From: Methylophaga nitratireducenticrescens
GTDB lineage: Bacteria; Pseudomonadota; Gammaproteobacteria; Nitrosococcales; Methylophagaceae
Assembly: GCF_000260985.4 (NCBI RefSeq)
Contig: NC_017857.3
Location: 1,674,001-1,738,000, forward strand
Direction: 5' to 3'
Length of the DNA stretch: 64,000 bases
The translations under genes and the position numbers were made by a program. This document shows, one piece after another, positions 15,796 to 54,547 of this stretch (positions within the stretch are counted from its first letter, which is position 1; the number at the start of each line of letters is the position of its first letter). Under the pieces are notes generated by a model. That model was not told the origin of the DNA, did not search any database, and worked only from the letters and a program-made list of their open reading frames with translations.

Positions 15796-15889
15796 TTAAC
15801 TCATCCTACGTGAAATACGTTTAATTTTGCCATATTCATCGGAATTGGGCAGAATTAATCATTATAAAAATAAAGCTGGGTTTGATGAT

Positions 15890-16579: not shown

Positions 16580-17356
16580 CGCCTCACCTGGTTCATCTGC
16601 CCGCATAAAGGCCTCGCCAACCAGGAAACCATTCACACCGTGCTCACGCATGAAAGTGACATCTTCCTTACCAAGGATACCGCTTTCGGTGATCACTATC
16701 ATTTCATCGGGAATAAAATTAAGTAACTTGATAGTGGTTTCCAGCGACGTTTCAAAAGTATGTAAATCGCGGTTATTGATGCCTATCAGAGGCAGATTCA
16801 ATACCAATGCACGATGCAACTCTTCTTCGTTATGCACTTCAACCAGCACATCCATATCCAGCTGAATCGCTAACTGACTTAACTGTTCCAGTTGATCATC
16901 ATCCAACGCGGCAACAATCAGCAGTATGCAATCGGCACCGATCGCTCTGGCTTCAAAAACCTGATAGGGAGCGATAATAAAATCTTTACGAATGACCGGT
17001 AGCTTACAGACCGTACGCGCCTGTTTCAGATAATCTTCATGGCCTTGGAAAAAATCCTGATCGGTCAATACCGATAAACAGGCCGCGCCACCGTTTTCAT
17101 AAGACATGGCAATTTCAGCAGGACGAAAATCCTCTCGCAGCACACCTTTGCTGGGTGAGGCTTTTTTAACTTCAGCAATAACGGCACTTTGCCCGGCAGC
17201 CAATTTACGTTCAAGGGCCTCAACAAAACCGCGTACCGGTTCAGCATTTTCAGCCAATTGTTGTAACAGGTTAATGGGCAAACGTTTACTGCGCTCGGCA
17301 ATTTCCTGTTGTTTACGTTGCAGAATTTTTTTCAGAATATCGGGTGTTTCAGTCAT
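16559..17356 (-). CDS. trpC: Indole-3-glycerol phosphate synthase
   Basis: The 265-residue TIM-barrel enzyme closes the indole ring in tryptophan synthesis. [37 protein letters not shown] and [14 protein letters not shown] contain the catalytic Lys residues, and [16 protein letters not shown] and VITESGI follow. It is monofunctional, with no fused TrpF. It is the last gene of the rpe-gph-trpE-trpG-trpD-trpC run, 9 bases after trpD, and its 3' end overlaps crp by 21 bases tail to tail. Confidence 0.96.
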
Positions 17357-38934: not shown

Positions 38935-38979
38935 TTGACAGTTGCCGCGCTTACTGAAATGATATGATATATCATAGTT
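38935..38979 (+). promoter_or_regulatory. Promoter with Zur-box-like operator upstream of merC
   Basis: A perfect -35, TTGACA (38935-38940), is followed 17 bases on by AATGAT (38958-38963). The operator ATGATAT-GAT-ATATCAT (38959-38975) has 7-base arms that are perfectly complementary, with GAA just before it. The known gammaproteobacterial Zur box has the same 7-3-7 architecture (ATGTTAT-ANT-ATAACAT). The operator covers the -10, so bound Zur would block RNA polymerase. The operon it drives ends with the zur gene itself. Confidence 0.75.
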
Positions 38980-38995
38980 AATGAGGTGGCTGAAA

Positions 38996-39376
38996 ATGAA
39001 AGATGATTTGGCCGTGGCCTGCTCAGGTGCATGCATGATCCATTGCTTATTAACACCAATAGTCATTGGATTTGGCACAGCTGGACTGTTAGGGGATTGG
39101 TTTACTTCTGAATGGGTGCATAAGGTAATGCTCGTTCCGGTGATCCTGCTGGCGATCCTGAGTTTACCGGGAGCTTATCGCAGACATAAAAATCGTTGGC
39201 CTTTATTACTCGGCGGAATAGGACTTTTCACCATGGTTTCAGCATTAATCGGTCCGGAATCTCTGGAGACATGGATCACTCTGAGTGGTGGACTGCTGGT
39301 GATTACTGCCCATCTCTGGAACCGAAATCTGTCACTGCGACTCATTCCTGCTCCACAAGGAAATGCAAATGGATGA
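38996..39376 (+). CDS. MerC domain-containing membrane protein
   Basis: The 126-residue protein has about four membrane helices and the MerC features ACSGACMIHCLLTPIVIG (Cys pair and His) and WVHKVMLVPVILLAIL. MerC proteins import mercuric ion, but relatives without other mer genes are found in zinc-responsive clusters. GAGGTGG lies about 6-8 bases before the ATG at 38996, so I prefer it to the ATG at 38981. First gene of the Zur-box operon; overlaps dksA2 by 8 bases. A zinc role is inferred from context. Confidence 0.82.
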   Translation: MKDDLAVACSGACMIHCLLTPIVIGFGTAGLLGDWFTSEWVHKVMLVPVILLAILSLPGAYRRHKNRWPLLLGGIGLFTMVSALIGPESLETWITLSGGLLVITAHLWNRNLSLRLIPAPQGNANG

Positions 39377-39779
39377 ACAGGATTTATTAGCGGCTTCCGA
39401 GACCGAGTATATGAATGCTGAACAGTTGGCTTTTTTTGATCGTCGTCTGCAGCAACTCAGAACTGAAACCCTGGATGAGATATCTGCAGTAAAAAATCAA
39501 ATGCTGGGCAACAGCCAGGTCAGTGATGTACTGGATAGGGCGCAGCAGGAAGAGGAGTCACAAATTGCTTTGCGTATTGCTGACCGAAAACGTCAATTGA
39601 TTCCCAAAATTGATGCAGCAAGGCAACGCATTCGCAGTGGGGAATATGGTTATTGCCTGCAAACCGGTGAGCCGATCGGCATTGCTCGTTTGCTGATACG
39701 CCCGACTGCCGAATATTGCACTGACGCCAAAACCATTAATGAACAAAAAGAAGGCCTCTATGAAGTTAAATCCAGATAA
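39369..39779 (+). CDS. DksA2-like TraR/DksA transcription factor with two-Cys zinc finger
   Basis: The 136-residue protein has the DksA coiled coil (about 20-80) ending near [12 protein letters not shown], with the tip residues altered from classic DksA. The four-Cys zinc finger is reduced: Cys96-x-x-Thr99 and Cys117-x-x-Ala120. P. aeruginosa DksA2, which works without zinc and is induced on zinc loss, has the same CxxT/CxxA pattern. AAGG lies 8 bases before the chosen ATG. It overlaps merC by 8 bases and the COG0523 gene by 20. I infer a zinc-sparing substitute for DksA. Confidence 0.85.
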
Positions 39780-40971
39780 ACGTTTACCAGTTACTGTGTT
39801 ATCAGGCTTTCTTGGTGCGGGTAAAACAACCGTTCTCAACCATATTCTGAATAACCGCGAAGGTCGAAAAGTGGCGGTTATTGTCAATGATATGAGTGAA
39901 ATCAATATCGATGCACAGCAAATCCAGCAGGATGTGCAACTGAATCGTGCAGAAGAAAAGCTGGTTGAAATGAGTAATGGCTGTATCTGTTGCACCTTGC
40001 GTGAAGATCTGTTGATTGAGGTTCGTCAACTGGCCGCAGAGCAACGTTTTGATTATCTGGTCATTGAATCAACCGGCATTTCCGAACCGTTACCAGTGGC
40101 AGAGACGTTTACCTTTGCTGATGAAGAGGGAGAAAGCCTGTCACAGATAGCCCGTCTCGACACCATGGTGACGGTGGTGGATGCGGTGAACTTCCTGAGT
40201 GATTTTAATGAAGCCAAACAACTTCAGGAGACTGGTGAAAGTCTAGGTGAAGATGATCAGCGCAGTGTGGCAGATTTGCTGGTGGATCAGGTTGAGTTTT
40301 GCGATGTCATTTTGATAAGCAAAACCGATTTATGTACTGCTGCACAGCTAACCGAGCTGACGGGCATTTTGAAAAGCCTCAATACTGAAGCAGAGATTAT
40401 ATCGATAGAAAATGGCCAGATCCCATTGGATAAAGTATTGGGTACGCAGAAGTTCAGTTTTGAAAAAGCCGAGCAGGCAGCAGGATGGCTGAAAGAAATG
40501 CGCGGCGAACACATTCCCGAGACCGAAGAATATGGCATCAGTAGTTTTACCTATGTTGCCAGACGACCTTTTCACCCACAGAAATTCTATGATTTTGTGC
40601 ATCAGGATTGGCCTTGCGGCAAGTTAATCCGCTCCAAAGGCTATTTCTGGCTAGCCAGTCGGCCGCAGTTTGCCGGTCAATGGAATCAGGCGGGTGGGAT
40701 TGCCCGCTATGGTTTTGCCGGCATGTTCTGGAAAGCCATCCCCGAAAATCGCTGGCCACAGGATGAAGAAAGTCAAAAGACTATCAAAGAAAACTGGCAG
40801 GAACCCTTCGGTGATATGCGTCAGGAACTGGTGTTTATTGGTCAGAACTTAAATGCTGAAATGGTCACAGCAGAACTGGATGCCTGTTTATTGAATGACA
40901 GTGAATTATTGTCCGGGAAGCAGCTATGGGAGACATTGCCCGATCCTTTCCCAGCCTGGGAGACAGCTTGA
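39760..40971 (+). CDS. COG0523 (CobW-family) zinc-responsive GTPase, ZigA-like
   Basis: The 403-residue protein has the P-loop [10 protein letters not shown] (15-24), the metal motif NGCICCTL (Cys75, 77, 78), [16 protein letters not shown] and a GTP-specificity element ISKTDL (SKxD in place of NKxD). The C-terminal CobW domain begins around [19 protein letters not shown]0523 proteins in zinc regulons are metallochaperones or allocate zinc. AAGAAGG 5 bases before the ATG at 39760 decides the start over the ATG at 39739. The next gene is DUF1826, the same neighbour as for P. aeruginosa PA5535. Confidence 0.9.
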
Positions 40972-40972
40972 A

Positions 40973-41610
40973 ATGAATCAGAGTGCTATAGCCTTCAATC
41001 CAGTATTTGAGCATGTGCAGACAGCAGATTCGCCTTTAGTGATGACCTCAATTTATCAACCGCATATCAATCTGGTTATTTGGCAGCGTCAATTGCAAAA
41101 AACACTGCAGGACTCAATGCGTTACAATTACGCACAATAATTGCTCCAGCTGAAGTCAGTGAATGGCTTGGCGGATTATTACCAGAGAATCCGCAACGAC
41201 ATTTATTTATTGATGATGTCAGTGAGTTAGTGGAAATGTATGCAGATCTGTTCGATTTAAATGTTGTAGGCTTGCGCCTCAGCCTGATAAACGAGACGAT
41301 GTGCCCCAGATTTCATACTGATCATTTAGCTTGTCGGTTGGTAATGACCTATCACGGACAGGGTAGTGAATGGTTGCAAGAAGACGATGTCGATCGTTCA
41401 AAACTGGGGGCTGGTGCTAATGGATTACCTGATCATTTGTCAGGAATATATCGACATCATCAGGATATTCAACAACTTCAGCAGGGAGAGGTTGGATTGT
41501 TCAAGGGTGATGGCTGGATTAATAGTCAGGTGAATGGCATTGTGCATCGTTCACCGCATATTAATAAGACCGATAAAAGATTATTACTGACCCTGGATTT
41601 TGCCGAGTGA
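40973..41610 (+). pseudogene. DUF1826 family protein, interrupted by a -1 frameshift
   Basis: The N-terminal part (MNQSAIAFNPVFEHV to WQRQLQK) reads in one frame from the ATG at 40973. The rest (NTAGLNALQLRTIIAP to LLLTLDFAE) is in the next frame. They join at an A-run at about 41096-41101. One more A would fuse them into a 212-residue DUF1826 protein. DUF1826 genes accompany COG0523 genes in zinc regulons; the FHTDHLACRLVMTYHG segment with two His is well conserved. It is either a real mutation, a sequencing error or a site of slippage. It starts 1 base after the GTPase stop. Confidence 0.8.
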
Positions 41611-41627
41611 GTAGGAGACTGTTGGAC

Positions 41628-42173
41628 ATGCGAGTTGCATTATATTTAGTCACCCTGTTTTGTGGCTTGCACCTGAGCTCTATTGTCTATGCTCAGGACG
41701 AACATCATGATCATGATGCAGGTCATCGCCATCATGGTGCCCATGTGCATGGAATGGCCACATTGGATTTAGTGATGGATGATCACCAATTGATGATGCA
41801 TTTAAAATCACCATTAATGAATTTTCTGGGGTTTGAACATCAGCCGGAAACAGAACAGCAAAAAGCCATTTATCAGGATATGCTGCAACAGCTTGAAATG
41901 CTTGCTACCCTTGTGGAAGTTCAGGGTTCGAGCTGTAAGGCTGAATCAATCGAGGTGGAAGAACCGTTTGCGGACGCTGACGAAGCAGGACACGCCGACG
42001 TAGATGTCAGCTATTTTTTACATTGTGAAGAACCTGAAAATATTACCGAATTGAAAATCAATTTATTTGATGTCTATAGTAATCTGGAAAGTTTGCAAGT
42101 GCAGATGGTTTTACCGACCGGCCAGCAGCAATTAAAACTTAATCAACAACGAACCTCTATCCGGATCCAGTGA
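41628..42173 (+). CDS. zrgA: DUF2796 (ZrgA-like) His-rich periplasmic protein
   Basis: The 181-residue protein has a signal peptide (about 1-22, ending VYA) and then a His/Asp cluster (EHHDHDAGHRHHGAHVHG, residues about 25-42) suited to zinc. The body MATLDLVMDDHQLMMHLKSPLMNFLGFEHQP is the DUF2796 core. In V. cholerae ZrgA and in P. aeruginosa PA4063 such proteins belong to zinc-starvation transporters. The ATG at 41628 gives a clean signal peptide; the GTG at 41607 does not. The gene overlaps zur by one base. Its transporter partners are probably at 51953-54547. Confidence 0.85.
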   Translation: MRVALYLVTLFCGLHLSSIVYAQDEHHDHDAGHRHHGAHVHGMATLDLVMDDHQLMMHLKSPLMNFLGFEHQPETEQQKAIYQDMLQQLEMLATLVEVQGSSCKAESIEVEEPFADADEAGHADVDVSYFLHCEEPENITELKINLFDVYSNLESLQVQMVLPTGQQQLKLNQQRTSIRIQ

Positions 42174-42637
42174 TGGCGAAAGTCGATACCAATATAGTAA
42201 TGCAACAAGCTGAACGTAGCTGTGTTGACCATGGTGTGCGGTTAACCAGTAAACGCAAGCATATTCTCGAAGTGTTATTGAACGCACAAGCACCTCGTTC
42301 AGCTTATGAAATTGCTGACTTGTATCGTCAGAAAACCGAGGAAAATATTCCAGTCATGTCGGTCTATCGAATGCTGGACTTTCTAATGCAGAATAGCCTG
42401 GTACATAAACTGGCCTCCAATAATAAATTTATTGCCTGTGCTCATATTGCCTGCTCGCATTCACACCAGACACCACAGTTTTTGATTTGTGATAACTGTC
42501 AGCAGGTAAGAGAAATAGGGGTAGACAAGCAACTGATTCATGCACTCGAAGAGAGCATTGAGCATAATCATTTTCAGCTTAACAGTCCGCAACTTGAACT
42601 ACATGGATTATGTGAAACCTGCCAGCAGGATAGTTAA
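42173..42637 (+). CDS. zur: Zinc uptake regulator Zur (Fur family)
   Basis: The 154-residue protein is collinear with Zur: winged helix VRLTSKRKHILEVLLNAQAPRSAYEIADLY and PVMSVYRMLDFLMQNSLVHKLASNNKFIACAH, then dimerisation and structural zinc site ICDNCQ...LCETC. The VYRMLDFL and HKLASNN segments match Zur better than Fur. Zinc-bound Zur represses uptake genes through the boxes found at 38959, 42657 and 52564. The ATG overlaps the zrgA stop by one base (TGATG). As last gene of a Zur-box operon it is likely autoregulated. Confidence 0.92.
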   Translation: MAKVDTNIVMQQAERSCVDHGVRLTSKRKHILEVLLNAQAPRSAYEIADLYRQKTEENIPVMSVYRMLDFLMQNSLVHKLASNNKFIACAHIACSHSHQTPQFLICDNCQQVREIGVDKQLIHALEESIEHNHFQLNSPQLELHGLCETCQQDS

Positions 42638-42656: not shown

Positions 42657-42673
42657 ATGATGTGATATATCGT
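42657..42673 (+). promoter_or_regulatory. Zur-box-like operator upstream of the ABC-2/TonB receptor/FhcA operon
   Basis: ATGATGT-GAT-ATATCGT differs from the merC operator at only 2 of 17 positions and keeps the 7-3-7 geometry. A possible -35 TTGGCT (42646-42651) and -10 TATCGT (42668-42673), 16 bases apart, would put the operator over the promoter. It lies 20 bases past the zur stop and 52 bases before the next gene, giving that operon its own zinc control. Confidence 0.7.
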
Positions 42674-42724
42674 ATTTTAAGAATCTTTTTCACCCTTTAT
42701 AAATAATTAAATCCAGGAGAAATC

Positions 42725-43426
42725 ATGCTGGAAGTGAACCAGTTAACCAAATCATTTGGTAATCGAATTGCCGTTGATCATCTCGACTTTAAAATCGCTT
42801 CTGGCGAAGTTTTATGTTTATTGGGTGCAAATGGCGCAGGTAAAACCACCACCTTAAATATGTTATTAGGCTTTACCGCACCAACCAGTGGCAGCGCCAC
42901 TTTAGAAGGTCAGGATCTTTATCAACAGTCATCGTCTTGTCGACAAAAAATCATGTATGTGCCAGAAAATGTGAATCTATATCCACGTTTTGATGCCATT
43001 GAAAATATTCACTATCTGGCGGTGCTGGCCAAAATGAAATTAACCGATCAGCAAGTCCATGAAGCGTTAATCAGTGCAGGGCTTAAACAGGCAGACTTTT
43101 CCAAGCACTTAGCTGAATATTCCAAAGGGATGCGCCAGAAAGTGGCCATTGCATTTGCCTTGTTAAAGCATGCCCGTTTGATATTGATGGATGAGCCGAC
43201 CTCTGGGCTGGATCCGGTTGCCACTCAGGATTTTATTCAAGTAGTGAATACGATTAAATCTCGCGGTGCGGCCGTGTTGATCGTCACACATGATCTTTTA
43301 TGCGCTCATCAGCTTGCTGACCGGATTGGCATTATGAAACAAGGTCATTTAACCGATTTAATTACCACGCAAACGTTAACATTGGATCAGCTAACGCAAC
43401 GTTACTTTGATCAGTTTGCAGCTTAA
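42725..43426 (+). CDS. ABC-2-type transporter ATP-binding protein
   Basis: The 233-residue ATPase has Walker A LLGANGAGKTTTLN, the Q-loop region, signature EYSKGMRQKVAIAFALL (SKGMR, as in ABC-2 exporters), Walker B LILMDEPTSGLDP and switch His in VLIVTHDLL. CcmA/NatA-like. AGGAG lies 5-7 bases before the ATG. It precedes a TonB-dependent receptor and two DUF3526-type permeases, which look like its membrane partners. The direction of transport in such zinc-linked units is not known to me. Confidence 0.88.
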   Translation: MLEVNQLTKSFGNRIAVDHLDFKIASGEVLCLLGANGAGKTTTLNMLLGFTAPTSGSATLEGQDLYQQSSSCRQKIMYVPENVNLYPRFDAIENIHYLAVLAKMKLTDQQVHEALISAGLKQADFSKHLAEYSKGMRQKVAIAFALLKHARLILMDEPTSGLDPVATQDFIQVVNTIKSRGAAVLIVTHDLLCAHQLADRIGIMKQGHLTDLITTQTLTLDQLTQRYFDQFAA

Positions 43427-45305
43427 ATTGTTGGGACGATTGTCCCTCTATTACTACTTTGTAGAACAAAAATAGTCTCCAGCGATGGTGGCTATCAAAG
43501 TAAAAAAGAACCTAAAGGACTTTACCGTGAAAAAAACACTTATCAGCAGCCTGATTGTGTCTGCTCTGCCGTTATCTGTGGTTGTTGCCGAGACAGATAA
43601 TGAACCCGCTGCCCGTATAGACCCTTTAGTGGTACTTGGAACTCGTCCGGATTATGCCGATGAAAACCTGGCCGGTTCACAGGATATTATCTCGCGCGAA
43701 GAGTTATCCATCAGTCATGTGAATAACACTATGGAATTGTTTACCAAAATCCGGGTGTTTATTTTGCCCGTTACAATCAGGGCATTATTAATACCGATAT
43801 TGGTATTCGCGGCTTTGCTGCTGAGGGAAGTACTCCCCATGCCAAGCTGTTAATTGATGGCATTCCGTCCAATCTGCATAACGGCTACAGTGAGATGGAT
43901 CAGTTGTTTCCGGGCTTTATCGATACGATTCAGGTCTATAAAGGCAACAGCGATCCACGTTATGGTATTTTCAATGTCGCGGGTAACTACAATATTACTA
44001 CCCGTTCGGATATTGGCCGTGAAGTTGAAGTAACACTCGGCAGTTATAACGCACGTGAGATTCAGGGATATTGGGGAGAACAGACCGGTGGATTGCAGCA
44101 CAGCTATTTCGTCGGTTACCGTGAATCAGAAGGCTATCGGGATAATTACGATATTGATAAATACAGTGTCGGTGGTCGCTGGTTTTATGATTTAACCGAC
44201 GATACTTCAATAGGCTTTATCGCCAGAATGGCAGAATATGATGCCGATGCGCCCGGTTATCTGACCCAAGACGAAGCCCGTAAACACCCGACTCGTTCTG
44301 CAGCTTATGCCAGCCAGGATGGTGGCAATAAAGAAACCCAATCATATAGCGTGCATTTTGATACTGCTTTACGTAATGATCTGACCTGGTCAGCCAAAGC
44401 GTATTACAACTATTACGAACGTGAGCGTTGGGTGCGGTTTAGTGAGGCTGGTTCATTGGGCAATCGTTATGATGAACAGGATCATTACGGCTTTATATCG
44501 ACATTGTCCTGGGATATTAATGAGCAGTGGGCCTTGAACTGGGGATTTGATATTGAACGCCAGGATGTGTTGGAGCAACGTTTTGGCACCATCGACAATT
44601 TACGGCAACGTGATGCCAGTAATGTATCACGTAACTTTGACTATGACTTTGTCAGCAAAGTTACTTATCTGCAGGTATCTCATGCACCAAATGAGTTTAT
44701 CGCCTGGAATGCTGCTATACGTGCTGATCAGATTGATGGAGATTTTAAACAACGTAATGCGGCAGATGAGGTCATCAGTAATCAAGACAGTTATGACTAT
44801 GGAACAATAGTTCAACCCAAATTCAATCTGTTTCTTTACCCAACTGATCAAGTGACTTTATTTGCCAATGCAGGACGCAGTTTCCAGCATCCGGTCAGCA
44901 GTAGTGCCTATACTGATGGCGATCGTTCAGCTCGTGATGTATCCATCAATGATGGCTGGGAATTAGGGGTGAAGTGGATGCCAGTCTATAGCCTCGAATT
45001 CCGTTTATCTTACTGGGAACAGAAGGCTAAAGACGAGTTTGTATTGGTTGATGGCCTCGCTCGCAATGTGGGTGAAACGCTGCGGCAGGGCGCGGATTTT
45101 GGCATGAGCTGGATGGCAACTGACAAACTGACCCTATGGGGTAACTTCAGCACCGTGGATTCAGAAATTCAAAGTCCCGGAGCTGACAAGGGAAATGAAT
45201 TACGCAGTATTCCTTCCTATACCGCTTCGACGGGTGTTAGCTATCTGTTTACTCCGGCACTGACAGGACGTCTTCACTACGATGCCCAGGGATCTTCTTA
45301 CATTA

Positions 45306-45323
45306 ACCTCAGATCTGCATAAG
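45306..45323. repeat. Left terminal inverted repeat of the IS982 element
   Basis: The 18 bases begin ACCTCAG. The transposase stop codon (45309-45311) lies inside this repeat. Its partner occupies 46265-46282. Confidence 0.85.
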
Positions 45324-46193
45324 CGCGCCCTTTTCATTCCTGTTCAACTTGATAGAAGGCTTCTTGGGTTGGAAGGTATAAGCCACCAATCCAGCCATGA
45401 GGTGGACCATAAAGCTGACAGGGCTGCGGTGCCGTGAGTGTTCGATTTGAGAAATATTCTTCAATTGGTCAAATATTGTTTCAATCACATAGCGTTTTCT
45501 CAACATCAACCGGTCCCATAACGTCATCAGTTGCGGTTTCATATTCTTGCGAATGCCGGTGACCAGCTTAATGCCTTGTTCGGCTAATGACTCTTTAAGT
45601 GTTTGAGACAGATAACCTTTATCGCCATACAAGGTGCCCCATAGCTGTTTGACCATGTCCGGTATGGGCTTGCGGTCATCAATATTGGCCGTTGTGATTT
45701 TTACTGAAAGTATTTCACCTTGTTCGTTCACTAACAGGTGTAGCTTGAAGCCATAAAACCAGCCCATGGTGCCCTTGCCTCGCTCTGCAACACCGCTAAA
45801 GACACGGTTTCGAGGAATGCGAATGTTGTGGCATACCGCCAGTTTGGTTGAATCAACAAAGGCGATGCCGGTTGGTTTGCCGTAACGTTGTGTCATAAAG
45901 GCACACAGGGGAACCAGCACACTTTGCAGCAGTTTCAACATGCGGGTATAGCTAACCAGTTGGGGGAAAGCTTGCTTCAAGTGCTTCCGAGCATAGTGTG
46001 TATAAAAGGTCTTGAAGTCTCTGAAGCGGAGCTGGTGAAATAAAATCAGAATAGTGATGACTTCACTTTCCGACAACTTGCCAGGCTTGTTCCGGCATTT
46101 ATCTCCGGCTGCTATCTGCTGGTGTTGCCAGGCCGGGATAAATCTTTGGCAAAAATCATCGACTTCGCAATACATTTTCTCTAAATTGTACAT
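45309..46193 (-). CDS. IS982 family transposase
   Basis: The 294-residue enzyme has an N-terminal KMYCEVDDFCQRFIPAWQ segment typical of IS982 and a DDE catalytic core: GIAFVDSTKLAVCHN (first Asp), WGTLYGDKGYLSQTL (second Asp) and MLRKRYVIETIFDQLKNI (Glu). The preferred ATG at 46193 follows AGGG; an 11-codon longer frame from 46226 exists. The stop lies within the left terminal repeat. It is antisense to the receptor it interrupts and appears intact, so the element may still be mobile. Confidence 0.95.
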   Translation of the reverse strand: MYNLEKMYCEVDDFCQRFIPAWQHQQIAAGDKCRNKPGKLSESEVITILILFHQLRFRDFKTFYTHYARKHLKQAFPQLVSYTRMLKLLQSVLVPLCAFMTQRYGKPTGIAFVDSTKLAVCHNIRIPRNRVFSGVAERGKGTMGWFYGFKLHLLVNEQGEILSVKITTANIDDRKPIPDMVKQLWGTLYGDKGYLSQTLKESLAEQGIKLVTGIRKNMKPQLMTLWDRLMLRKRYVIETIFDQLKNISQIEHSRHRSPVSFMVHLMAGLVAYTFQPKKPSIKLNRNEKGALMQI

Positions 46194-46512
46194 ACTTGAG
46201 CCCTTTCGTTTCTCGTTTTTGGTCAAACGATTCGATCGTGGCTCAGGCTTTTAGTTCCTCTTTTCTTATGCGCAGCTCAGGTTACATTAATGAAGCAAAT
46301 GCCGGCGGCAAGTTTGGTCAATACAATCTGGTGAATGCCAGTCTTGATTACGAGACAAGCTGGGGCAATATCAATTTTCAGATTAATAATCTGATGAATG
46401 AATATTATGAATACGTCTACGACTTTGGGAATGCTGGCGATCCGGTTGACACCATTCATTCACCTGGTGACGGTATCAATGCCAGCGTTTCAGTGGCGTA
46501 CAAGTTCTAATC

Positions 46513-47931
46513 ATGATGCAGACAATTATTGAAATTGCACGTCATGAGCTCATTACGCAATGGCGCAGCCAGACCCTGAAAATCCTGTTGCCATTGTTGC
46601 TGGTGTTAACGGCATTAATTGCGTTTTCACATTGGCAACAGCAGCAGGATTTTATTGAAGCGCAAACCATTTGGCAGCAACAGAATGATGCTGAATGGGA
46701 TGCTCAGCCAGATCGGCATCCGCATCGTGCAGCACATTACGGCACGATGGTGTTTCGTATCATCTCACCGCTGAGCTTTATCGATAGCGGTGTAAATCCG
46801 TTTGTCGGTAATGCTTTATTTCTGGAAGCGCATCGGCAAAACAACAGCAGCTTCAAACAATATGTCAGTAGCACGGCCTATATGAGACTTGGATATCTGT
46901 CAGGCGCGACGATTATTCTGGTGATCTGGCCTTTGGTGTTGATTGCATTGGCATTTAATAGTGTTAGTGGTGAGCGTGGTCAGGGAACATTACGGCAACT
47001 GGTCTCACAAGGCATCAGTGTCAAACAGCTATTAATTGGCAAAACGCTGGCATACAGCCTGATTTCGCTGGTCTTTCTGTTAGTGATTTTTATTATTGCA
47101 ATAGGCTTTATGCTACAAACTCAGGTACATGGAAGTGATGTTTTACGCATGGGATCTATGTTTGTTTTGTTCCTGTTTTATTGTCTGCTTTGGACCATCG
47201 CAGTGATATTGTTCTCCAACTGGTGTCGCACTAATCAGCAAAGCCTGTCTGCATTGCTGTTGTTCTGGCTGCTCACGGTGATTGTGATGCCTAAAATGGC
47301 TTACAGTCTCGCAGAAATGCAATATCCGATGCCGGATCGTGCGGTGTTTGATATTCAGACGGCACAGGAAATTGCCAAAGTAGGTGATTCCCATAACCCT
47401 GACGATCCACATTTCTCCGAGTTTCGTGAAAAAGTATTAGCAGAATATGGCGTCTCACGTGTTGAAGATCTTCCGGTGAATTGGCGTGGTGTCGTGATGC
47501 AAGAAGGCGAGCGCATTACCAGCGAAGTATTTACCCAACAATATGAAAACTTGATGCAAATTGCTGAGCAGCAAAATCAACTGGTCAGTTATGTAGCGTG
47601 GTTTTCACCGTATTTATTAGCCAATAAGTTATCGTCTATTTTTGCGGCGACCAATGCGGGTAGTTTTTTGCATTATGAAAACGCTGCGGAGCAATTTCGC
47701 TTTAATTTCATTAAGCAACTGAATCAGTTGCATGCAGAACAAATCGACCATGCCCATGACCGTGAACAAAAAGTCACGAATGAGCAATTGGTAAATCTGC
47801 AGCAATTTGATTATCAATCACCTACCTTACAGAACGAACTGAATCTGATTTACCGGCCTTTATTAATATTACTGGGATGGTTAATCATCGGTGTGTTGTT
47901 ACTTTCCCGTAGTCGTAATGAGGTTGATTAA
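46513..47931 (+). CDS. ABC-2-type transporter permease (DUF3526-like), first
   Basis: The 472-residue protein has an N-terminal helix (about 24-42), a large extracytoplasmic part and a block of five or six helices (LGYLSGATIILVIWPLVLIALAFNSVSGERGQGTLRQLVSQGISVKQLLIGK, then further hydrophobic segments). SGERGQGTL-R is characteristic of ABC-2 permeases. A second soluble part rich in Gln precedes a last helix near the C-terminus. It starts 2 bases after the receptor and almost abuts the second permease, so with the ATPase at 42725 the pair probably forms one transporter. Confidence 0.85.
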   Translation: MMQTIIEIARHELITQWRSQTLKILLPLLLVLTALIAFSHWQQQQDFIEAQTIWQQQNDAEWDAQPDRHPHRAAHYGTMVFRIISPLSFIDSGVNPFVGNALFLEAHRQNNSSFKQYVSSTAYMRLGYLSGATIILVIWPLVLIALAFNSVSGERGQGTLRQLVSQGISVKQLLIGKTLAYSLISLVFLLVIFIIAIGFMLQTQVHGSDVLRMGSMFVLFLFYCLLWTIAVILFSNWCRTNQQSLSALLLFWLLTVIVMPKMAYSLAEMQYPMPDRAVFDIQTAQEIAKVGDSHNPDDPHFSEFREKVLAEYGVSRVEDLPVNWRGVVMQEGERITSEVFTQQYENLMQIAEQQNQLVSYVAWFSPYLLANKLSSIFAATNAGSFLHYENAAEQFRFNFIKQLNQLHAEQIDHAHDREQKVTNEQLVNLQQFDYQSPTLQNELNLIYRPLLILLGWLIIGVLLLSRSRNEVD

Positions 47932-47932
47932 G

Positions 47933-49297
47933 GTGAAATTTATCCAATTTGAATTACGCTTGTTATGGCAGAACAAGCTTTTTAAATGGTTGATGCTAGC
48001 CTATCTGTTAACTGCTGTATTAGCCATTATCTGGGGTCAGATAGGACTGCAACGGGAATATCAACAGCGGACTATCAGCGAAGTAAATTATCAAGCCGAA
48101 TTGGCCGACTATCAGAAGGATGCTCCTTTAGTTCCATACGACTCTGGTTATATGAGTTATTACCAGTTTCATCCTGTCTGGCAAAAACCGTCTGCCTGGT
48201 CGGCATTGATACATGGTGAACGTAGCGAAGCGGCTACACATACACGGGTTCGTTTATTAGGTTTGCAAAGCCAATTGAGCAATACCGCGACTGGCAATAT
48301 TGCTGCTATGCCCATTGGTAAGCTGGACTTGAGTTTTATCTGGATTTACCTGATGCCGTTATTAATCGCTGCCTTAAGTTTAAATCTGCTTGCAGAAGAG
48401 AAGGCCAGCGGGCGCTGGTCATTATTGGCCTCTCAGGTGGCTAATAGCGGTATGTTATTAACTAAAAAAATGCTCATTGCAGCAGGCTTGCTGGCAGTCG
48501 TAAATATAGTGATATTACTGGCAGCTGTTGTACTGACGGATATCAGACTGAATGGCTTATGGTGGCAGATTGCAGCGGTATTATTAGCCTATCAACTCTG
48601 CTGGTTTTTGATTACCGGCTGGATTATCAGCCTGCAACGCACAGCTATCTTTAACAGTTTGTTATTTATCAGTCTGTGGATTGTATTTGCTTTTGTATTG
48701 CCTGGTTTGGCTTATCTCTACCAGACGCAACAACAGCAACCCGCGGAGCATGTCTCAATGCTGTTTGATCAGCGTGAATATATGCATGACAGCTGGGATA
48801 GGGATAAACAAGCGGATTTTGATGCCTACCTGCAGGATTATCCACAGTGGGCGATTACCGAGGCGACATTGCAACAGTCGTTTGACTGGCGTTGGTATTA
48901 TGCGATGCAGCATATGAGCGATGTGATTGTGGCGGGGGCAGTCGCGCAGTTTCGTGAGAGTCGCCTTAACTCCCACCAAATTGGCAATAAAGTTGCCTGG
49001 TTATCCCCGGTAATGCGTTTGCAATACAGTATGAATCGTTTTGCCGATACCGATATGCTGGCAAGTCAGGCATTTCTGGATCAGATTGGTGATTATCACC
49101 AGCAATTACGCAAATATTTCTTTAATTTCTATTTTTTTGACAAGCCGTTTACGGAGGATGATTTTGCCGATATTCCTCAATTTGACTATCAGCCCATCAA
49201 TCAGAGCAACACTGCTAAAACGCTCATTAATTTAATGCTAATAGGGCTGTTTTTTATTGGCTTAATGACATTACAAACTCGCAGAAACCGTGGCTGA
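47933..49297 (+). CDS. ABC-2-type transporter permease (DUF3526-like), second
   Basis: The protein is of similar size and layout to the first permease: N-terminal helix (WLMLAYLLTAVLAIIWG), extracytoplasmic loop, IYLMPLLIAALSLNLLAEEKASGRWSLLASQ (the permease motif) and several helices, ending with MLIGLFFIGLMTL. GTG at 47933 lies 9 bases after GAGG and is my choice; ATG at 47918 overlapping the first permease is the alternative. It overlaps the second COG0523 gene by 8 bases. Confidence 0.82.
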   Translation: MKFIQFELRLLWQNKLFKWLMLAYLLTAVLAIIWGQIGLQREYQQRTISEVNYQAELADYQKDAPLVPYDSGYMSYYQFHPVWQKPSAWSALIHGERSEAATHTRVRLLGLQSQLSNTATGNIAAMPIGKLDLSFIWIYLMPLLIAALSLNLLAEEKASGRWSLLASQVANSGMLLTKKMLIAAGLLAVVNIVILLAAVVLTDIRLNGLWWQIAAVLLAYQLCWFLITGWIISLQRTAIFNSLLFISLWIVFAFVLPGLAYLYQTQQQQPAEHVSMLFDQREYMHDSWDRDKQADFDAYLQDYPQWAITEATLQQSFDWRWYYAMQHMSDVIVAGAVAQFRESRLNSHQIGNKVAWLSPVMRLQYSMNRFADTDMLASQAFLDQIGDYHQQLRKYFFNFYFFDKPFTEDDFADIPQFDYQPINQSNTAKTLINLMLIGLFFIGLMTLQTRRNRG

Positions 49298-50321
49298 ACA
49301 AACGTTCAAGCTGTTTCAAAAAGCGATACCGACCAATGTAATTACCGGTTTTCTCGGCGTTGGTAAAACCACGGCGATCCAGCAGCTACTAAATACCAAA
49401 CCGGCAGGCGAACGCTGGGCAGTATTAATTAATGAATTTGGCAAAGTGGGCATTGATAGGCAGCTATTGCAAACCGATGACGATTCTCTAGGAAAGGTCA
49501 CGATTCGCGAAGTACCCGGGGGCTGTATGTGCTGTGCCGCAGGTTTGCCGATGAAGGTCGCACTTAATCAACTTATTGGTAAAGCCAAACCCGACAGATT
49601 ATTGATTGAACCCAGTGGGTTGGGACACCCGGAAGAAGTGATCGCCGTGCTGTCAGGAGAATTTTATCAATCGGTCATAGATTTACGCGCCACCCTGACA
49701 TTGGTTGATGCACGTCATATGTCTGATGCGAAATATCGCGAGCATGAGACTTTTCAGCAGCAGTTACAAATCGCCGATCTGATCGTGGCGAACAAGGCCG
49801 ATATGTATGGTCAGAGCGAAATTGCTGCTTTAACAGCTTATTTAAATGAAATGCATCTTCAGGAACTACCTTTACAAATCATTCAGGACGCAAAAATTAA
49901 TCCTGAATGGTTAGATCCAAAAGCTAAATTTAATCAGGCCATCTGGCAGGAGCAACCAGCGGTTTTTAATCTTGATAATGAAGAACAACTTATTCCAGAT
50001 TGCGGCTACCTGGCGGCCACTCAAAAGTTAAGTGGCTGGTATAGCTATGGCTGGCGGTTCAAATCAACATTCTGTTTTGATTACCAACCGCTGATTACAT
50101 GGCTGGAGCAATTTAAACAGATTCGGCTTAAAGCGGTTTTTCGAACAAGTGAGGGGTGTGTCGCTATCAATCAAGCTGATGACAAGTTAACAATTGAAAA
50201 ACTGCCCACTCAGCCAGCAAAAAGTCGTATTGAGTTCATTACCGATAAGCCGCTTGATGCAAAAAAAATGGAAAACCAATTATTACAGATGTGTGGGATA
50301 AACCATGTTAACCCGGCTTAA
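49290..50321 (+). CDS. COG0523 GTPase, second, coupled to an FhcA-like gene
   Basis: The 343-residue protein has P-loop GFLGVGKTTAIQQ (20-28), NEFGKVGIDRQL (switch region), the metal motif GGCMCCAAGLP (Cys79, 81, 82), LIEPSGLGHPEE and the full GTP element VANKADM. The C-terminal CobW-like domain starts near YSYGWRFKSTFCFDY. It differs from the ZigA-like protein in the signature after the CxCC motif, so it is a distinct subfamily. GTG start. Its end overlaps the amidohydrolase gene by 17 bases, implying coupled translation and probably a client relation. Confidence 0.88.
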   Translation: MAEQTFKLFQKAIPTNVITGFLGVGKTTAIQQLLNTKPAGERWAVLINEFGKVGIDRQLLQTDDDSLGKVTIREVPGGCMCCAAGLPMKVALNQLIGKAKPDRLLIEPSGLGHPEEVIAVLSGEFYQSVIDLRATLTLVDARHMSDAKYREHETFQQQLQIADLIVANKADMYGQSEIAALTAYLNEMHLQELPLQIIQDAKINPEWLDPKAKFNQAIWQEQPAVFNLDNEEQLIPDCGYLAATQKLSGWYSYGWRFKSTFCFDYQPLITWLEQFKQIRLKAVFRTSEGCVAINQADDKLTIEKLPTQPAKSRIEFITDKPLDAKKMENQLLQMCGINHVNPA

Positions 50322-51948
50322 AAACGCTCGAGTATACGACCCGGTACAAAAACTGAATGGCGAATTGATGGATTTGTGGATCCGAGATGATCGAATCGTT
50401 GATCCGAAACAGATTAATGACAGAGATTCAGCTATTACCTACGATTTAGACGGGGCTATTACCATGGCAGGCGGCGTGGATATTCATAGCCATATTGCAG
50501 GCGGTAACGTGAATACCGCCCGTTTATTGCTACCAGATCAACACCGTAATCATCTGCAAAGACAGGAAAATCTGCCGTTTTATAACGCTCGTTGGTCAAG
50601 TTTTGAAACTGGTTATCGCTACACTGAAATGGGCTACAGCATGGTGGTTGAACCGGCAATGTTGCCGGTCAATGCGCCGCAGGTGCATCGAGAAATGGCG
50701 GATATCCCCATCATTGATACGGCTGCACTGGCGATTCTTGGCAGTGATGATTTGCTGGTATCCATGTTGCGAAGTGGTGCTTCGCAGGATCAGATTAATG
50801 ACTATGTAAGCTGGACCATTAACACCACCCAGGCATTAGGTTTGAAAGTAATTAATGCCGGTGGTTCGCAGGCGTTTAAAGCCGGGGTTGAACAGTTTGG
50901 TCTGGATGATAAAGTACCGGATTATGGCATCAGCTCTCGGCGCTTATTAACCTCATTGCAGACCGCCGTGCATCAATTGGGTATTCCGCACCCGGTACAT
51001 GTGCATTGTAATAATTTGGGTGTTCCCGGTAATGTACAAACCGCCATTGATACCATGGAGGCTGCCCAGGGCTTACCCATGCATCTGGCGCATGTGCAAT
51101 TTTATGGTTATGGCGCAGAGGGTAATCGCGGTTTCTCTTCGGCTGCAGCTCAATTGATGGAAGCCTTTAATCGACATCCCAATATCACCATGGATGTCGG
51201 ACAGGTGTTATTTGGTCAGACGGTGACAATGTCAGGGGATATCATCGCTCAATTCTCACGTCGTGGTGATGCCAGTCCGCATAAATGGGTGATGTGGCAT
51301 GCCGAAAATGAGGGCAGTGGTGGCATCGTGCCTTATCAATACAAAAAAGCCAGCTTTGTAAATGGTTTGCAATGGGCCATTGGTCTGGAAATTTTTCTAT
51401 TATCCGGCGATCCGTGGCGTTTGTTTTTCACCACCGATCATCCCAATGGTGCACCGTTTACCCGTTATCCGGATTTGCTGCATTTATTGATGGACTATGA
51501 CTTTCGCATGGCCTGTCTGGCAGAGCTGGATCCGGAGATTATGGAGTTGACCCTGCTCAAAGATTTGAAACAGGAGTTCAGCTTATACGATATTGCCATT
51601 ATGACCCGGGCGGCCCCGGCAAAATTATTGGGGTTGAATGATCGTGGACATCTGCAACCCGGCGCTTTGGCCGATATTGCGGTTTATCATGAGCAAGATG
51701 ATAAAGAGGCTATGTTCAGAAAGGCGCAGTGGGTCTTCAAAAACGGTCAGCTGATTATTGAACGCGGCGAGTTTGTGAAGCGTCAATTTGGCCAGACCAT
51801 GACCGTTAAACCGCATTTTGATAGACAGATTGAATCAACCGTTAAAAATTACTTTGATCGTTTTTATTCAATGAAATTATCCAACTATGGGGTTCATGAC
51901 GATTTGTTATTTGATCAGCCCGAGCGCTTTTCTGCGATTAACTTATAA
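50305..51948 (+). CDS. fhcA: Formylmethanofuran dehydrogenase subunit A / FhcA-like amidohydrolase
   Basis: The 547-residue protein is an amidohydrolase of the FmdA/FwdA/FhcA group: RVYDPVQKLNGELMDLWIRDDRIV, AGGVDIHSHIAGGNVNTARLLLPDQHR, LGLKVINAGGSQAFKAG, VHVHCNNLGVPGN, MHLAHVQFYGYG and FFTTDHPNGAPFTRYPDLL. Likely binuclear metal ligands His61, His63, Lys181 (carboxylated in the family), His234, His263 and Asp378 are all kept. In methylotrophs FhcA hydrolyses the formyl carrier as part of an FhcABCD complex. No fhcB, fhcC or fhcD is nearby. It ends a zinc-controlled operon right behind a COG0523 gene. Confidence 0.85.
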   Translation: MLTRLKNARVYDPVQKLNGELMDLWIRDDRIVDPKQINDRDSAITYDLDGAITMAGGVDIHSHIAGGNVNTARLLLPDQHRNHLQRQENLPFYNARWSSFETGYRYTEMGYSMVVEPAMLPVNAPQVHREMADIPIIDTAALAILGSDDLLVSMLRSGASQDQINDYVSWTINTTQALGLKVINAGGSQAFKAGVEQFGLDDKVPDYGISSRRLLTSLQTAVHQLGIPHPVHVHCNNLGVPGNVQTAIDTMEAAQGLPMHLAHVQFYGYGAEGNRGFSSAAAQLMEAFNRHPNITMDVGQVLFGQTVTMSGDIIAQFSRRGDASPHKWVMWHAENEGSGGIVPYQYKKASFVNGLQWAIGLEIFLLSGDPWRLFFTTDHPNGAPFTRYPDLLHLLMDYDFRMACLAELDPEIMELTLLKDLKQEFSLYDIAIMTRAAPAKLLGLNDRGHLQPGALADIAVYHEQDDKEAMFRKAQWVFKNGQLIIERGEFVKRQFGQTMTVKPHFDRQIESTVKNYFDRFYSMKLSNYGVHDDLLFDQPERFSAINL

Positions 51949-51952: not shown

Positions 51953-52531
51953 CTATTCTTCTTCATACAACTCAATGTTGTCAGCTGCCATCGAATAGGC
52001 TGAAACGGCCACTTCATTTTCGGTGATGGTGGTTGTCAGCGTACCCTCGACCCAATAGGGATCATAAAGGTTCTGTTGAGCGACGCCTTCTTTGGAGGTG
52101 ACATAAATAATCTGATTGGGCGGCGGCGGGGGATAATGGATACAGGCACCGAAAAAAGGTACTAGAAAGAACTCAGTCACCAATTGCTCTTCGTTCATTT
52201 CGACGGGAACGATAAAACCAGGCAGGCGGATGGGGCGTTGATCGTATTCCGGTTTGACCTTGGCAGAGGTTAATGCCTGTTGATAACGGTCATCAGCGGA
52301 GTTTTCCAGTGCCCCGAGTAATTGACTACTGATTTGATCTTCCATCGAACCATCTTCGATTTCATCAAGATATTCGGGTGGATTCATCAATGCTTCGAGA
52401 TCGTCATCGGGCATTAAATCAACCCAATCAATAAGTTCGTAATTTTCGTCAGCTAACAGTGGCTGAGTCATTGTCAGGCAAGTGATTAGTAATAATGGAA
52501 CCCAGAATTTTGCAGATGCCAGTTGTGTCAT
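51953..52531 (-). CDS. DUF3299 domain exported protein (zinc-transport accessory)
   Basis: The 192-residue protein has a signal peptide (about 1-28, ending LLADE) and an acidic N-terminal part (WVDLMPDDDLEALMNPPEYLDEI). The DUF3299 core reads RPIRLPGFIVPVEMNEEQLVTEFFLVPFFGACIHYPPPPPNQIIYV. Such proteins stand next to the LolD/FtsX-type zinc transporters of V. cholerae (Zrg) and P. aeruginosa (PA4066). It is divergent from the ATPase at 52624 with a Zur-like box between and converges on the FhcA gene with a 4-base gap. Confidence 0.85.
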   Translation of the reverse strand: MTQLASAKFWVPLLLITCLTMTQPLLADENYELIDWVDLMPDDDLEALMNPPEYLDEIEDGSMEDQISSQLLGALENSADDRYQQALTSAKVKPEYDQRPIRLPGFIVPVEMNEEQLVTEFFLVPFFGACIHYPPPPPNQIIYVTSKEGVAQQNLYDPYWVEGTLTTTITENEVAVSAYSMAADNIELYEEE

Positions 52532-52563
52532 ATGACTCCAGAGCGTTAAATTTCGAGCGAAAA

Positions 52564-52580
52564 TGTTATGTTATAACAAT
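52564..52580. promoter_or_regulatory. Zur-box-like operator between DUF3299 and the ABC transporter
   Basis: ATGTTAT-GTT-ATAACAA has the 7-3-7 layout and nearly the exact arms of the published Zur consensus (ATGTTAT/ATAACAT). AAA precedes and TTT follows, matching the outer consensus bases in part. It lies 32 bases upstream of DUF3299 and 43 bases upstream of the ATPase, so one site can control both directions. Confidence 0.78.
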
Positions 52581-52623
52581 TTATAAGCTCTCAACATGAT
52601 CCATTTTTCAAGCCGGTAAAAAA

Positions 52624-53319
52624 ATGACTAATCGTTATGCTATTCAGATTGATGACTGTCAGTTCCGTTATCAGCAAAACTCAGACAGTGTTGTATTACA
52701 AATAGCTCACTGGGAAATTAAAAAAGGCGAAACGGTTTTTGTCTACGGACCTTCCGGTTCGGGTAAATCCACTTTATTAAATTTACTGGCCGGGATTCTG
52801 TTGCCACAGCGTGGCACCATCAAGTTGGATGAGGTCATACTAAACCAGCTCAACCATCGCAAAAGAGATGCGTATCGGGCACAACATATTGGTATGGTGT
52901 TTCAACGTTTTAATCTGATTCCGTACTTAACGGTGGCCGACAATATTAAACTGGCCAGTCATTTTTCCAAACAGGGTATACAGAATCTGCAACAACGCAC
53001 TCTGGAATTGATGAATGCTTTGCAACTGGATGCCCAGATATTGAAAAGGCCGGCATCGCAATTGAGCGTCGGTCAGCAGCAACGGGTAGCGATTGTTCGT
53101 GCTTTGATGAATCAACCGGAATTATTAATTGTCGATGAGCCCACTTCAGCATTAGATAGTGACGCACGTGATAGTTTTGTTGATTTGCTGCTGGAGCAGG
53201 TAAAAGCGATGCAAGCCACTCTGATCTTTGTCAGCCATGACAGAAGTCTGGCACAACACTTTTCCAGACAGTTGGATATACAGTCGTTTGTGGTCGCAGG
53301 AGAAAAACATGCTGTTTAA
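52624..53319 (+). CDS. ABC transporter ATP-binding protein (LolD/MacB type), zinc-linked
   Basis: The 231-residue ATPase has Walker A VYGPSGSGKSTLLNLLAG, Q-loop VFQRFNLIPYLTV, signature QLSVGQQQRVAIVRAL, Walker B LLIVDEPTSALDSD and switch His FVSHDRSL. The LolD/MacB subfamily pairs with FtsX-like permeases, and one follows with an 11-base overlap. With DUF2796 and DUF3299 proteins this matches P. aeruginosa PA4063-PA4066 and V. cholerae Zrg, which respond to zinc shortage. Confidence 0.9.
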   Translation: MTNRYAIQIDDCQFRYQQNSDSVVLQIAHWEIKKGETVFVYGPSGSGKSTLLNLLAGILLPQRGTIKLDEVILNQLNHRKRDAYRAQHIGMVFQRFNLIPYLTVADNIKLASHFSKQGIQNLQQRTLELMNALQLDAQILKRPASQLSVGQQQRVAIVRALMNQPELLIVDEPTSALDSDARDSFVDLLLEQVKAMQATLIFVSHDRSLAQHFSRQLDIQSFVVAGEKHAV

Positions 53320-54547
53320 ACTGGCGTGGAAAAGTCTGCTCGCCAGACGCGTTAGCGTGTTACTGACTATATTGATGATGACGGTGAGTATTTTTGTGTT
53401 ACTCAGTGTAGAAACCATCCGTTATCAAGCCAAAGACAGTTTTACCAAAACCGTTTCCGGTGTGGATTTGATTGTCGGTGCCCGTACCGGCCAGGTGAAT
53501 TTATTGCTGTACTCGGTATTTCATATTGGCGTGCCAACCAATAATATTTCCTGGCAGAGTTATCAGGATATTGCTTCCCGTTCTTCAGTTGCCTGGACAA
53601 TTCCTATTTCACTAGGTGATTCCCATCGTGGCTATCGGGTCATTGGCACCAGCACAGACTTTTTCGAGTTTTTTCGCTTTGGTAATAAGCAATCACTCGA
53701 ATTTAAACAAGGTAAAGCGTTTGATGATCATTTCGATGCAGTGATTGGTTCAGAAGTTGCCAGACAACTGGGCTATAAATTTGGTGATGCTATCGTGCTT
53801 TCTCATGGAATTGCCAATACCAGTTTCAGCAAACATGATGATAATCCATTCAAAATTACGGGTATTCTGGCCCCAACAGGAACGCCGGTAGATCAATCTC
53901 TCTACGTCAGTTTGCAAGGTATTGAAGCCATTCATGCCAACTGGCAGGGTGGGGTAAAAATGCCGGGTGCAGCTAAGCCAAAACTTGACGAGTTGCAGCC
54001 ACAAGCCATAACGGCATTTATGCTGGGACTGAATTCGAGGATTCAGACCTTTAATTTGCAGCGGCAAATCAATGAATATCAGCAGGAACCGCTTCAGGCC
54101 ATTTTGCCCGGAGCCACATTGATGTCGCTGTGGTCAATGTTGAGCAGCGTGGAACAGCTGTTATTATTGATTGCTTCACTGGTGCTGTTGGGTGCGCTGA
54201 TCGGGATGGCGAATATGCTATTGGTTTCAATGCGTGAGCGACGACATGAATTGTCGGTATTGCGGGCACTGGGTTATCGACCGGGATTTCTGTTCTGCTT
54301 ATTACAGCTTGAAGCCTTATTGATAAGTCTTGTAGCAGCAGTCGCCGCGTTTATCAGTTTGCAATTAAGCATGTATGTATTGAAAGACTGGTTATTGCAG
54401 GAATACGGTATTTTGCTGACCCGCCTATCAATCATAAATGAATTTCTGTTTATGTTACCGATGGTGATGCTTGCCAGTTTTCTGGTCGCTTTAATTCCGG
54501 CAATCAGTGCTTATCGACAAGGGTTACATCAGCAATTGAATCTGTGA
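53309..54547 (+). CDS. FtsX-like ABC transporter permease, zinc-linked
   Basis: The 412-residue protein has the MacB/FtsX arrangement: an N-terminal helix (VSVLLTILMMTVSIFVLL), a periplasmic domain (about 45-275) and three C-terminal helices beginning near SMLSSVEQLLLLIASLVLLGALIGMANMLLVSMRERRHELSVLRALGYRPGFLF. GGAG lies 7 bases before the ATG at 53309, which fits better than the longer frame from 53228. The 11-base overlap with the ATPase gene implies coupling. Members of this type move substrates out of membranes or act as mechanotransmitters; zinc import by this class is proposed, not proven here. Confidence 0.88.
   Translation: MLFKLAWKSLLARRVSVLLTILMMTVSIFVLLSVETIRYQAKDSFTKTVSGVDLIVGARTGQVNLLLYSVFHIGVPTNNISWQSYQDIASRSSVAWTIPISLGDSHRGYRVIGTSTDFFEFFRFGNKQSLEFKQGKAFDDHFDAVIGSEVARQLGYKFGDAIVLSHGIANTSFSKHDDNPFKITGILAPTGTPVDQSLYVSLQGIEAIHANWQGGVKMPGAAKPKLDELQPQAITAFMLGLNSRIQTFNLQRQINEYQQEPLQAILPGATLMSLWSMLSSVEQLLLLIASLVLLGALIGMANMLLVSMRERRHELSVLRALGYRPGFLFCLLQLEALLISLVAAVAAFISLQLSMYVLKDWLLQEYGILLTRLSIINEFLFMLPMVMLASFLVALIPAISAYRQGLHQQLNL

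Follow-up and report, generated by a model that had tools for sequence, protein, structure and literature searches.

FhcA2, a probable Zur-controlled zinc-limitation isoform of the hydrolase subunit FhcA in Methylophaga and methanotrophs

Why should a zinc island close with a gene for a one-carbon hydrolase, far from the fhc operon? The question is raised by a 64,000-nucleotide stretch of Methylophaga nitratireducenticrescens DNA (contig NC_017857.3, positions 1,674,001 to 1,738,000; hereafter the window, to which coordinates refer unless a locus is named), which encodes a homologue of FhcA, the hydrolase subunit of the formyltransferase/hydrolase complex (Fhc). We call this protein FhcA2, the FhcA of the canonical fhc operon FhcA1, and the COG0523 GTPase encoded immediately before fhcA2 G3E2; loci and genomes used for comparison carry L and G numbers. 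FhcA2 is probably a Zur-controlled isoform of FhcA for conditions of zinc limitation. Comparison shows that it is a paralogue linked to zinc genes and Zur-like boxes, that its presumed ligands are retained, that it is under purifying selection and that, with few exceptions, a canonical FhcA is present alongside.

The fhcA2 open reading frame (ORF; 50305-51948, forward strand, 547 residues) scores 662 bits against TIGR03121, compared to a curated cut-off of 393. It overlaps by 17 bases the ORF of G3E2 (49290-50321, 343 residues; 151 bits to PF02492 in a profile search), an overlap reported in the preliminary description of this DNA and confirmed by these coordinates. The pair ends a run of MerC-like, DksA-like, ZigA, DUF1826, ZrgA, Zur-like, ABC transporter and TonB-receptor genes. 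We searched the genome for a second, complete fhc operon, as the same description had proposed, and found a canonical fhcBADC operon on contig C1 at ~296–301 kb (L039), ~1.4 Mb from fhcA2, in which FhcB (TIGR03129), FhcA1, FhcD (TIGR03119) and FhcC (TIGR03122) are encoded side by side and all score over their family cut-offs. The possibility that FhcA2 is the only FhcA of the genome is thus rejected, and it must be regarded as a paralogue, a second copy, ~50% identical to FhcA1 in a comparison without ORFs under 400 residues and near-identical copies (e.g. FhcA2 of G020). Neither fhcB, fhcC nor fhcD lies beside a zinc-context fhcA2 in the loci examined, and zinc genes were not found together with fhcB, fhcC or fhcD near any full-length FhcA, save for weak QueD-like matches in L153 and L155.

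Within the window's family FhcA2 is present in 21 of 57 genomes, and in 19 of the 24 belonging to the genus. It tracks the zinc metallochaperone ZigA, occurring in 19/24 ZigA-positive and 2/33 ZigA-negative family genomes (Fisher p 1e-8, uncorrected for kinship), and other zinc genes lie at 19 of the 21 family loci, the exceptions being L067, a short contig where only G3E2 accompanies fhcA2, and L054, with an exact box of its own. A scan limited to one genome for each species, from which the best 80 matches were kept, gave a list of 34 named FhcA2 loci that is a lower bound; among the matches listed, FhcA2 occurs in Methylomonas, Methylobacter, Methylotuvimicrobium buryatense 5G (where the zinc island contains fhcA2; L100, L183), Methylicorpusculum, Crenothrix, Methylocaldum and a Methylophilaceae bacterium. 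Zinc-island genes (ZigA, DUF1826, ZIP, COG0523, FolE2, QueD2, ThrRS2 or DksA2) were recognised at 32 of these 34 loci, the survey leaving out L130, where FhcA2 is split; of the remaining two, L160 has HisI2 and a box and L129 has neither. Representatives of FolE2, QueD, HisI and ThrRS score over curated cut-offs, while the ZIP and carbonic-anhydrase-like representatives match related models below theirs.

The second copy also keeps company with the Fhc pathway. A canonical-type FhcA (at least 757 bits) is present in 29 of the 32 genomes searched from the named loci, the short contigs L125 and L128 having been left out. In class samples of 369 genomes, which we assume to be identical between the separate scans, the zinc marker DUF1826 was found in 29 genomes, FhcA (E 1e-60) in 50 and both in 10. 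All five zinc-clade FhcA2 sequences in these samples (G000, which is the present genome, G028, G180, G197, G309) fall within the 10 genomes with both, and none was found in the 19 sampled genomes with DUF1826 only or the 40 with FhcA only. In L112, a zinc island from a genome lacking FhcA over the cut-off, G3E2, HisI2, Zur and a carbonic-anhydrase-like protein are encoded but FhcA2 is not.

An exact match to the Zur-like pattern ATGWTAYNWTRTAWCAW heads the island 5' of the MerC-like gene (ATGATATGATATATCAT, 38959-38975, forward strand), as it does at the same place in L040–L044 and others, and a second lies between the DUF3299 and LolD-like genes (ATGTTATGTTATAACAA, 52563-52579, forward strand). 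These are the only exact sites in the 3.135 Mb genome (one contig), although both were already known from the window before the genome was counted; allowing one mismatch adds three places outside the window, and a backwards control pattern gives one. A first Zur pattern, TGTTATANTATAACA, matched the window four times with three mismatches, compared to 3.97 expected, which is chance level, and the pattern was then widened to TGWTAYNWTRTAWCA and a 17-mer after inspection of sites in zinc loci. With at most one mismatch TGWTAYNWTRTAWCA gave 59 sites (53 after merging of overlaps) in 504,656 bases comprising the window and 29 loci (L110, L111 and L113 among them not being zinc islands), compared to one site in 240,467 bases of 15 control fhc-operon loci. 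Since the pattern had been widened after the zinc loci were viewed, these counts are partly circular, and we therefore recounted on the 26 named FhcA2 loci that were new (the 34 minus eight duplicates of earlier DNA, namely L123–L128, L160 and L183). This yielded 33 sites (25 after merging, 23 exact) within 389,496 bases, distributed over 20 of the 26 loci, whereas 34 fhc-operon loci (517,223 bases) gave a single site. The pattern scan showed no Zur-like box at the canonical fhc locus L039. In four rearranged islands a box lies directly 5' of fhcA2 itself: L048 (~96 bp, one mismatch), L049 (104 bp, one mismatch), L051 (68 bp, exact) and L054 (74 bp, exact), the last being telling because fhcA2 there has no zinc neighbour in the 17 kb of available DNA. 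In L106 a box stands ahead of a HisI2-FhcA2 pair.

FhcA2 is also distinct by descent. In a first tree, which omitted two short FhcA1 fragments, 23 zinc-clade rows from four families fell on one side of a branch (Shimodaira-Hasegawa-like approximate likelihood ratio test, SH-aLRT, 99). An 80-row tree, leaving out sixteen loci (mostly near-duplicate operon rows) and the named loci below L128, grouped FhcA2 of Methylophaga and Methylococcales in a clade (95/95) to which canonical FhcA does not belong. A wider clade (95/91), in which the long branches of L160 and the alphaproteobacterial rows may join falsely, adds L158 of Methylophilaceae, L160 and ten lone alphaproteobacterial FhcA, and adjoins the operon FhcA of Beijerinckiaceae and Methylorubrum extorquens. 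As the canonical FhcA of the same organisms stands elsewhere in the tree, FhcA2 is not the product of a recent duplication, and its candidacy as a recent duplicate of FhcA1 is rejected on their distance in the trees. The FhcA2 of G032, a genome of the Methylophaga family, nests within Methylomonas (100/98) and was likely acquired by horizontal transfer.

The protein keeps its presumed ligands and its fold. His61, His63, Lys181, His234, His263 and Asp378, which we take to be metal ligands after the earlier reading and after FwdA, are all present in the window's FhcA2, in agreement with the preliminary description, which had judged the protein not to look zinc-free; all six are kept in 47/47 zinc-clade rows, in 101 other rows (with one X) and in 10/10 alphaproteobacterial rows. 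Loss of zinc ligands, which is common, if not universal, among zinc-regulon paralogues, is therefore not seen here, and the notion of an enzyme made zinc-free by ligand loss is rejected. The zinc clade is marked instead by Ala315 (46/47 rows; Arg in 9/9 sister rows), Arg319 (45/47; mostly Ala319 in the sister operon FhcA) and Ser338 (42/47), and Tyr344 is found in 47/47 zinc-clade rows and likewise in the alphaproteobacterial rows. The ratio of nonsynonymous to synonymous substitution rates (dN/dS) of FhcA2 is 0.02–0.04 in three comparisons (0.034 against G016), and on this evidence the gene is under strong purifying selection. The best match of a structure model is FhcA of PDB 6S6Y (template modelling score, TM, 0.85). 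Predicted local distance difference test (pLDDT) values fall under 50 at residues 67–76, 78–80, 86–97, 305–346 and 379–384, so that the clade marks sit in or beside a low-confidence stretch; as the model is weak around the active site, we drew no ligand geometry from it.

Several observations weigh against a zinc-limitation isoform. The retention of all six ligands means that the sequence bears no sign of a lower need for zinc. Three of the 32 named genomes have no canonical-type FhcA (G434, G451, G453; assemblies of 2.6–2.8 Mb, completeness not stated, the first with a second, partial FhcA copy), and five ZigA-bearing genomes of the family have no FhcA2. An FhcA2-clade gene in a Methylomonas assembly with three FhcA copies (L129, 8989-10650) has no recognised zinc gene nearby, the ten alphaproteobacterial loci have a lone FhcA of the wider clade without zinc neighbours, and 6 of the 26 new named loci show no box at one mismatch or fewer in the available DNA, which is short for several of them. 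In the present strain, moreover, a transposase insertion and a terminator-like hairpin lie between the head box and fhcA2.

This damage bears on the preliminary description's placing of the genes behind a Zur-like box, which is accurate to the letter, an exact box heading the island. The DUF1826 gene is frameshifted near 41.1 kb, and the TonB-receptor gene (43485-46510) has both a frameshift near 43.75 kb and an insertion at ~45.32–46.27 kb, with a PF13612 transposase gene (45309-46226) inside the receptor gene; both genes are whole in L044. The hairpin (47958-47978), lying where two ABC permease genes meet and nearly identical in sequence in L041, L042, L043 and L044, may cut G3E2-FhcA2 off from what lies upstream in the island. 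A Zur-like box does precede fhcA2 or its operon, with continuity of the transcript uncertain in this strain. Given the insertion, two frameshifts, hairpin and a degenerate box at 42658, zinc control of fhcA2 here is something we infer from relatives. The wider claim, that this copy of FhcA is a zinc-regulon paralogue, is supported by the retention of a full fhc operon, by zinc linkage across several families and by the boxes before fhcA2 in four genomes.

The gene before fhcA2 invites a narrower explanation. G3E2 has a cobW domain (PF02492) and a CxCC motif in the form CMCC, and falls in a tree clade with YeiR. Of the 21 family loci, 15 have its gene immediately 5' of fhcA2, although it is broken in L055 and the L066 copy is only 28% identical. 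In four it lies downstream, next to fhcA2 in L048 and two genes away in L046, L049 and L051; in L047 other genes intervene, and G028 lacks it. G3E2 is found in 19 of the 21 family genomes with FhcA2, while the other 36, of which some are incomplete, do not have it, and it co-occurs with FhcA2 among the 24 ZigA-bearing genomes (Fisher p 1.4e-4, again uncorrected for kinship). In methanotrophs the GTPase genes touching fhcA2 belong to other COG0523 subfamilies, L100a upstream in 12/26 loci and L100b downstream in 10/26; by a strict script, which overlooks neighbours with an overlap above 60 bases, a COG0523 gene of any kind is adjacent at 15 of the 26 Methylococcales/Methylophilaceae loci, and some overlap fhcA2. 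Of the conserved COG0523-FhcA adjacency asked for in the preliminary description, these counts bear out a frequent COG0523 neighbour, but the subfamily differs between lineages, YeiR-type in Methylophaga and L100a or L100b in methanotrophs. ZigA is found in the FhcA2 islands of both lineages, and two Methylophaga genomes also have L100a-type genes, at loci other than that of fhcA2 (L116, L117). Among relatives of G3E2 in genomes that have no FhcA above the cut-off (L110, L111, L112), one lies in the zinc island described above (L112), and another, a YeiR-clade gene amid genes resembling, by eye, those of cobalamin biosynthesis (L110, 7846-8853), suggests service to a different metal client.

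The preliminary description proposed that the GTPase supplies this FhcA with metal, and G3E2 could then be a dedicated metallochaperone that loads the binuclear site of FhcA2 at times of zinc scarcity. The 17-base overlap, the frequent upstream position, the confinement of G3E2 to FhcA2 genomes within the family and the overlapping COG0523 genes of methanotrophs all speak for this, yet the neighbouring subfamily varies by lineage, relatives of G3E2 occur without FhcA, fhcA2 occurs with G3E2 absent (G028) or broken (L055), and G3E2 evolves faster than its neighbour (dN/dS 0.14 compared to 0.03; 0.138 and 0.034, both against G016). We consider this explanation unlikely: a COG0523 neighbour of fhcA2 is common, but a dedicated GTPase is not supported by these comparisons, and the earlier proposal is supported in part only.

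Somewhat less likely still is that FhcA2 acts outside the Fhc complex, as a free-standing zinc-stress amidohydrolase with another substrate. The separation from fhcB, fhcC and fhcD, the ~50% identity to FhcA1 and the substitutions at Ala315, Arg319 and Ser338 would fit such a role; the canonical-type FhcA alongside in 29 of 32 named genomes, the absence of FhcA2 from all 19 sampled genomes with DUF1826 but no FhcA, and the retention of fold and presumed ligands argue against it. It is very improbable that the extra fhcA merely sits in the zinc island by chance or descent with no zinc role. The linkage is largely inherited inside one genus, as hitchhiking would have it, but it has outlasted rearrangement, likely horizontal transfer (G032 within Methylomonas) and variation in island make-up, and hitchhiking would account poorly for strong purifying selection and for boxes of its own before fhcA2 in four genomes.

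For the zinc-limitation isoform we infer a response to zinc, assembly with FhcBCD and some way of coping with low zinc. As zinc runs short, Zur would leave its boxes, and the cell would produce FhcA2 along with proteins for zinc uptake, COG0523 metallochaperones and further substitute forms of zinc enzymes. FhcA2 would then join FhcB, FhcC and FhcD from the canonical operon, and the hydrolysis of formyl groups, hence formaldehyde oxidation, would be kept going while FhcA1 is under-metallated. FhcA2 might cope with low zinc through another metal, tighter binding, loading by a chaperone or simply more copies. More specifically, and only tentatively, the Fhc complex may exchange FhcA1 for FhcA2 under zinc starvation, with FhcA2 either using iron, manganese or cobalt or being loaded by a COG0523 protein.

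The Fhc route is a main path of energy generation and detoxification in most methylotrophs, and copper and lanthanides are known to steer methane oxidation. If a conserved FhcA copy for zinc shortage is confirmed, the influence of trace metals on methane oxidation would extend to zinc, and the list of zinc-regulon enzymes would gain a member from a core one-carbon pathway. Should the exchange of FhcA subunits also be true, methanotrophs and methylotrophs would possess a switch that spares zinc in their central one-carbon oxidation and that has passed from one group to another through gene transfer. The oxidation of formaldehyde through Fhc in methylotrophs is treated in PMC8141765.

The remaining genes of the island are on the forward strand. 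The run begins with the MerC-like gene (38981-39376; PF03203, 96 bits), followed by a DksA paralogue (39363-39779; PF21157, PF01258) in whose translation, read by eye, two of four zinc-finger cysteines are left, the COG0523 zinc metallochaperone GTPase ZigA (39739-40971; NF038288, 710 bits, cut-off 600), the frameshifted DUF1826 gene (40901-41610, start approximate; PF08856, in two frames compared to L044), the zinc uptake protein ZrgA (41607-42173; PF10986) and a Zur-like FUR-family regulator (42170-42637; PF01475), for which the best NCBIfam match is PRK11639 Zur, under its cut-off. The degenerate Zur-like box (42658-42677, forward strand), 5' of the ABC ATPase gene, has two mismatches, where L052, L053, L055, L063 and L064 have none or one. 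ABC ATPase, broken TonB-dependent receptor and two ABC permease genes (42725-49297, including the DDE transposase ORF) then lead to G3E2 and fhcA2. Beyond these, a DUF3299 gene on the reverse strand (51953-52531; PF11736), kept in neighbours, diverges from genes for an ABC ATPase and an FtsX/MacB-type permease on the forward strand (52624-54547; PF00005, and PF02687 with PF12704; LolD and LolE by resemblance), which lie behind the second exact box. This block (51953-54547) with its own box trails zinc islands even where FhcA2 is lacking (L112, L114, L115).

Some further loci deserve mention. The ten alphaproteobacterial lone FhcA (L156, L157, L159 of HIMB59-MED-G10, L161, L165, L167, L168, L184, L187, L193) are 48–51% identical to FhcA2 and adjoin an RND-like gene and mostly also a HisI-like gene; no fhcB, fhcC, fhcD or zinc gene was recognised near them. 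Genes of YdiJ-type D-2-hydroxyglutarate dehydrogenase occur in the zinc islands of L048 (11982-15041; NF049975, 1517 bits) and L049 (1454-4393, by resemblance), and in L054 one (13728-16697, by resemblance) lies immediately 3' of fhcA2; this is possibly another zinc-regulon paralogue. In Methylophaga G020 (L116, 1537-7677) SufE-like, flavoprotein, carbonic-anhydrase-like, ThrRS-like (by resemblance) and L100a-type COG0523 genes are grouped, and scanning with the first Zur pattern, TGTTATANTATAACA, gave no Zur-like box at this locus.

Among known systems, the archaeal formylmethanofuran dehydrogenase subunits FwdA/FmdA, parts of CO2-reducing metal complexes, have TIGR03121 and the fold in common with FhcA2, at 32–33% identity in a fold search. 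The best solved relative is FhcA of the M. extorquens complex (PDB 6S6Y; 507 bits, TM 0.85), with the same six ligand positions; FhcA2 differs from it in being a second gene, located in a zinc island away from fhcB, fhcC and fhcD, with zinc-clade substitutions in 315–344. G3E2 shares a clade and 38% identity with E. coli YeiR, a zinc-binding COG0523 GTPase by its RefSeq name, from which it differs in its zinc-island place beside fhcA2. We recognised no description of an FhcA in a zinc regulon in the titles and abstract openings of the open-access literature searched, and the word 'formylmethanofuran' is absent from the main text of Haas et al. 2009 (PMC2770081). The paralogues treated there (HisI, PyrC, Cam, ThrRS, QueD and DksA, together with FolE2) cluster with COG0523 behind Zur sites, and FhcA2 is like them in logic and neighbours, while differing in that it is pathway-specific and occurs with the Fhc system. 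On sequence comparison, then, FhcA2 most likely adds to this known class of zinc-regulon enzyme paralogues.

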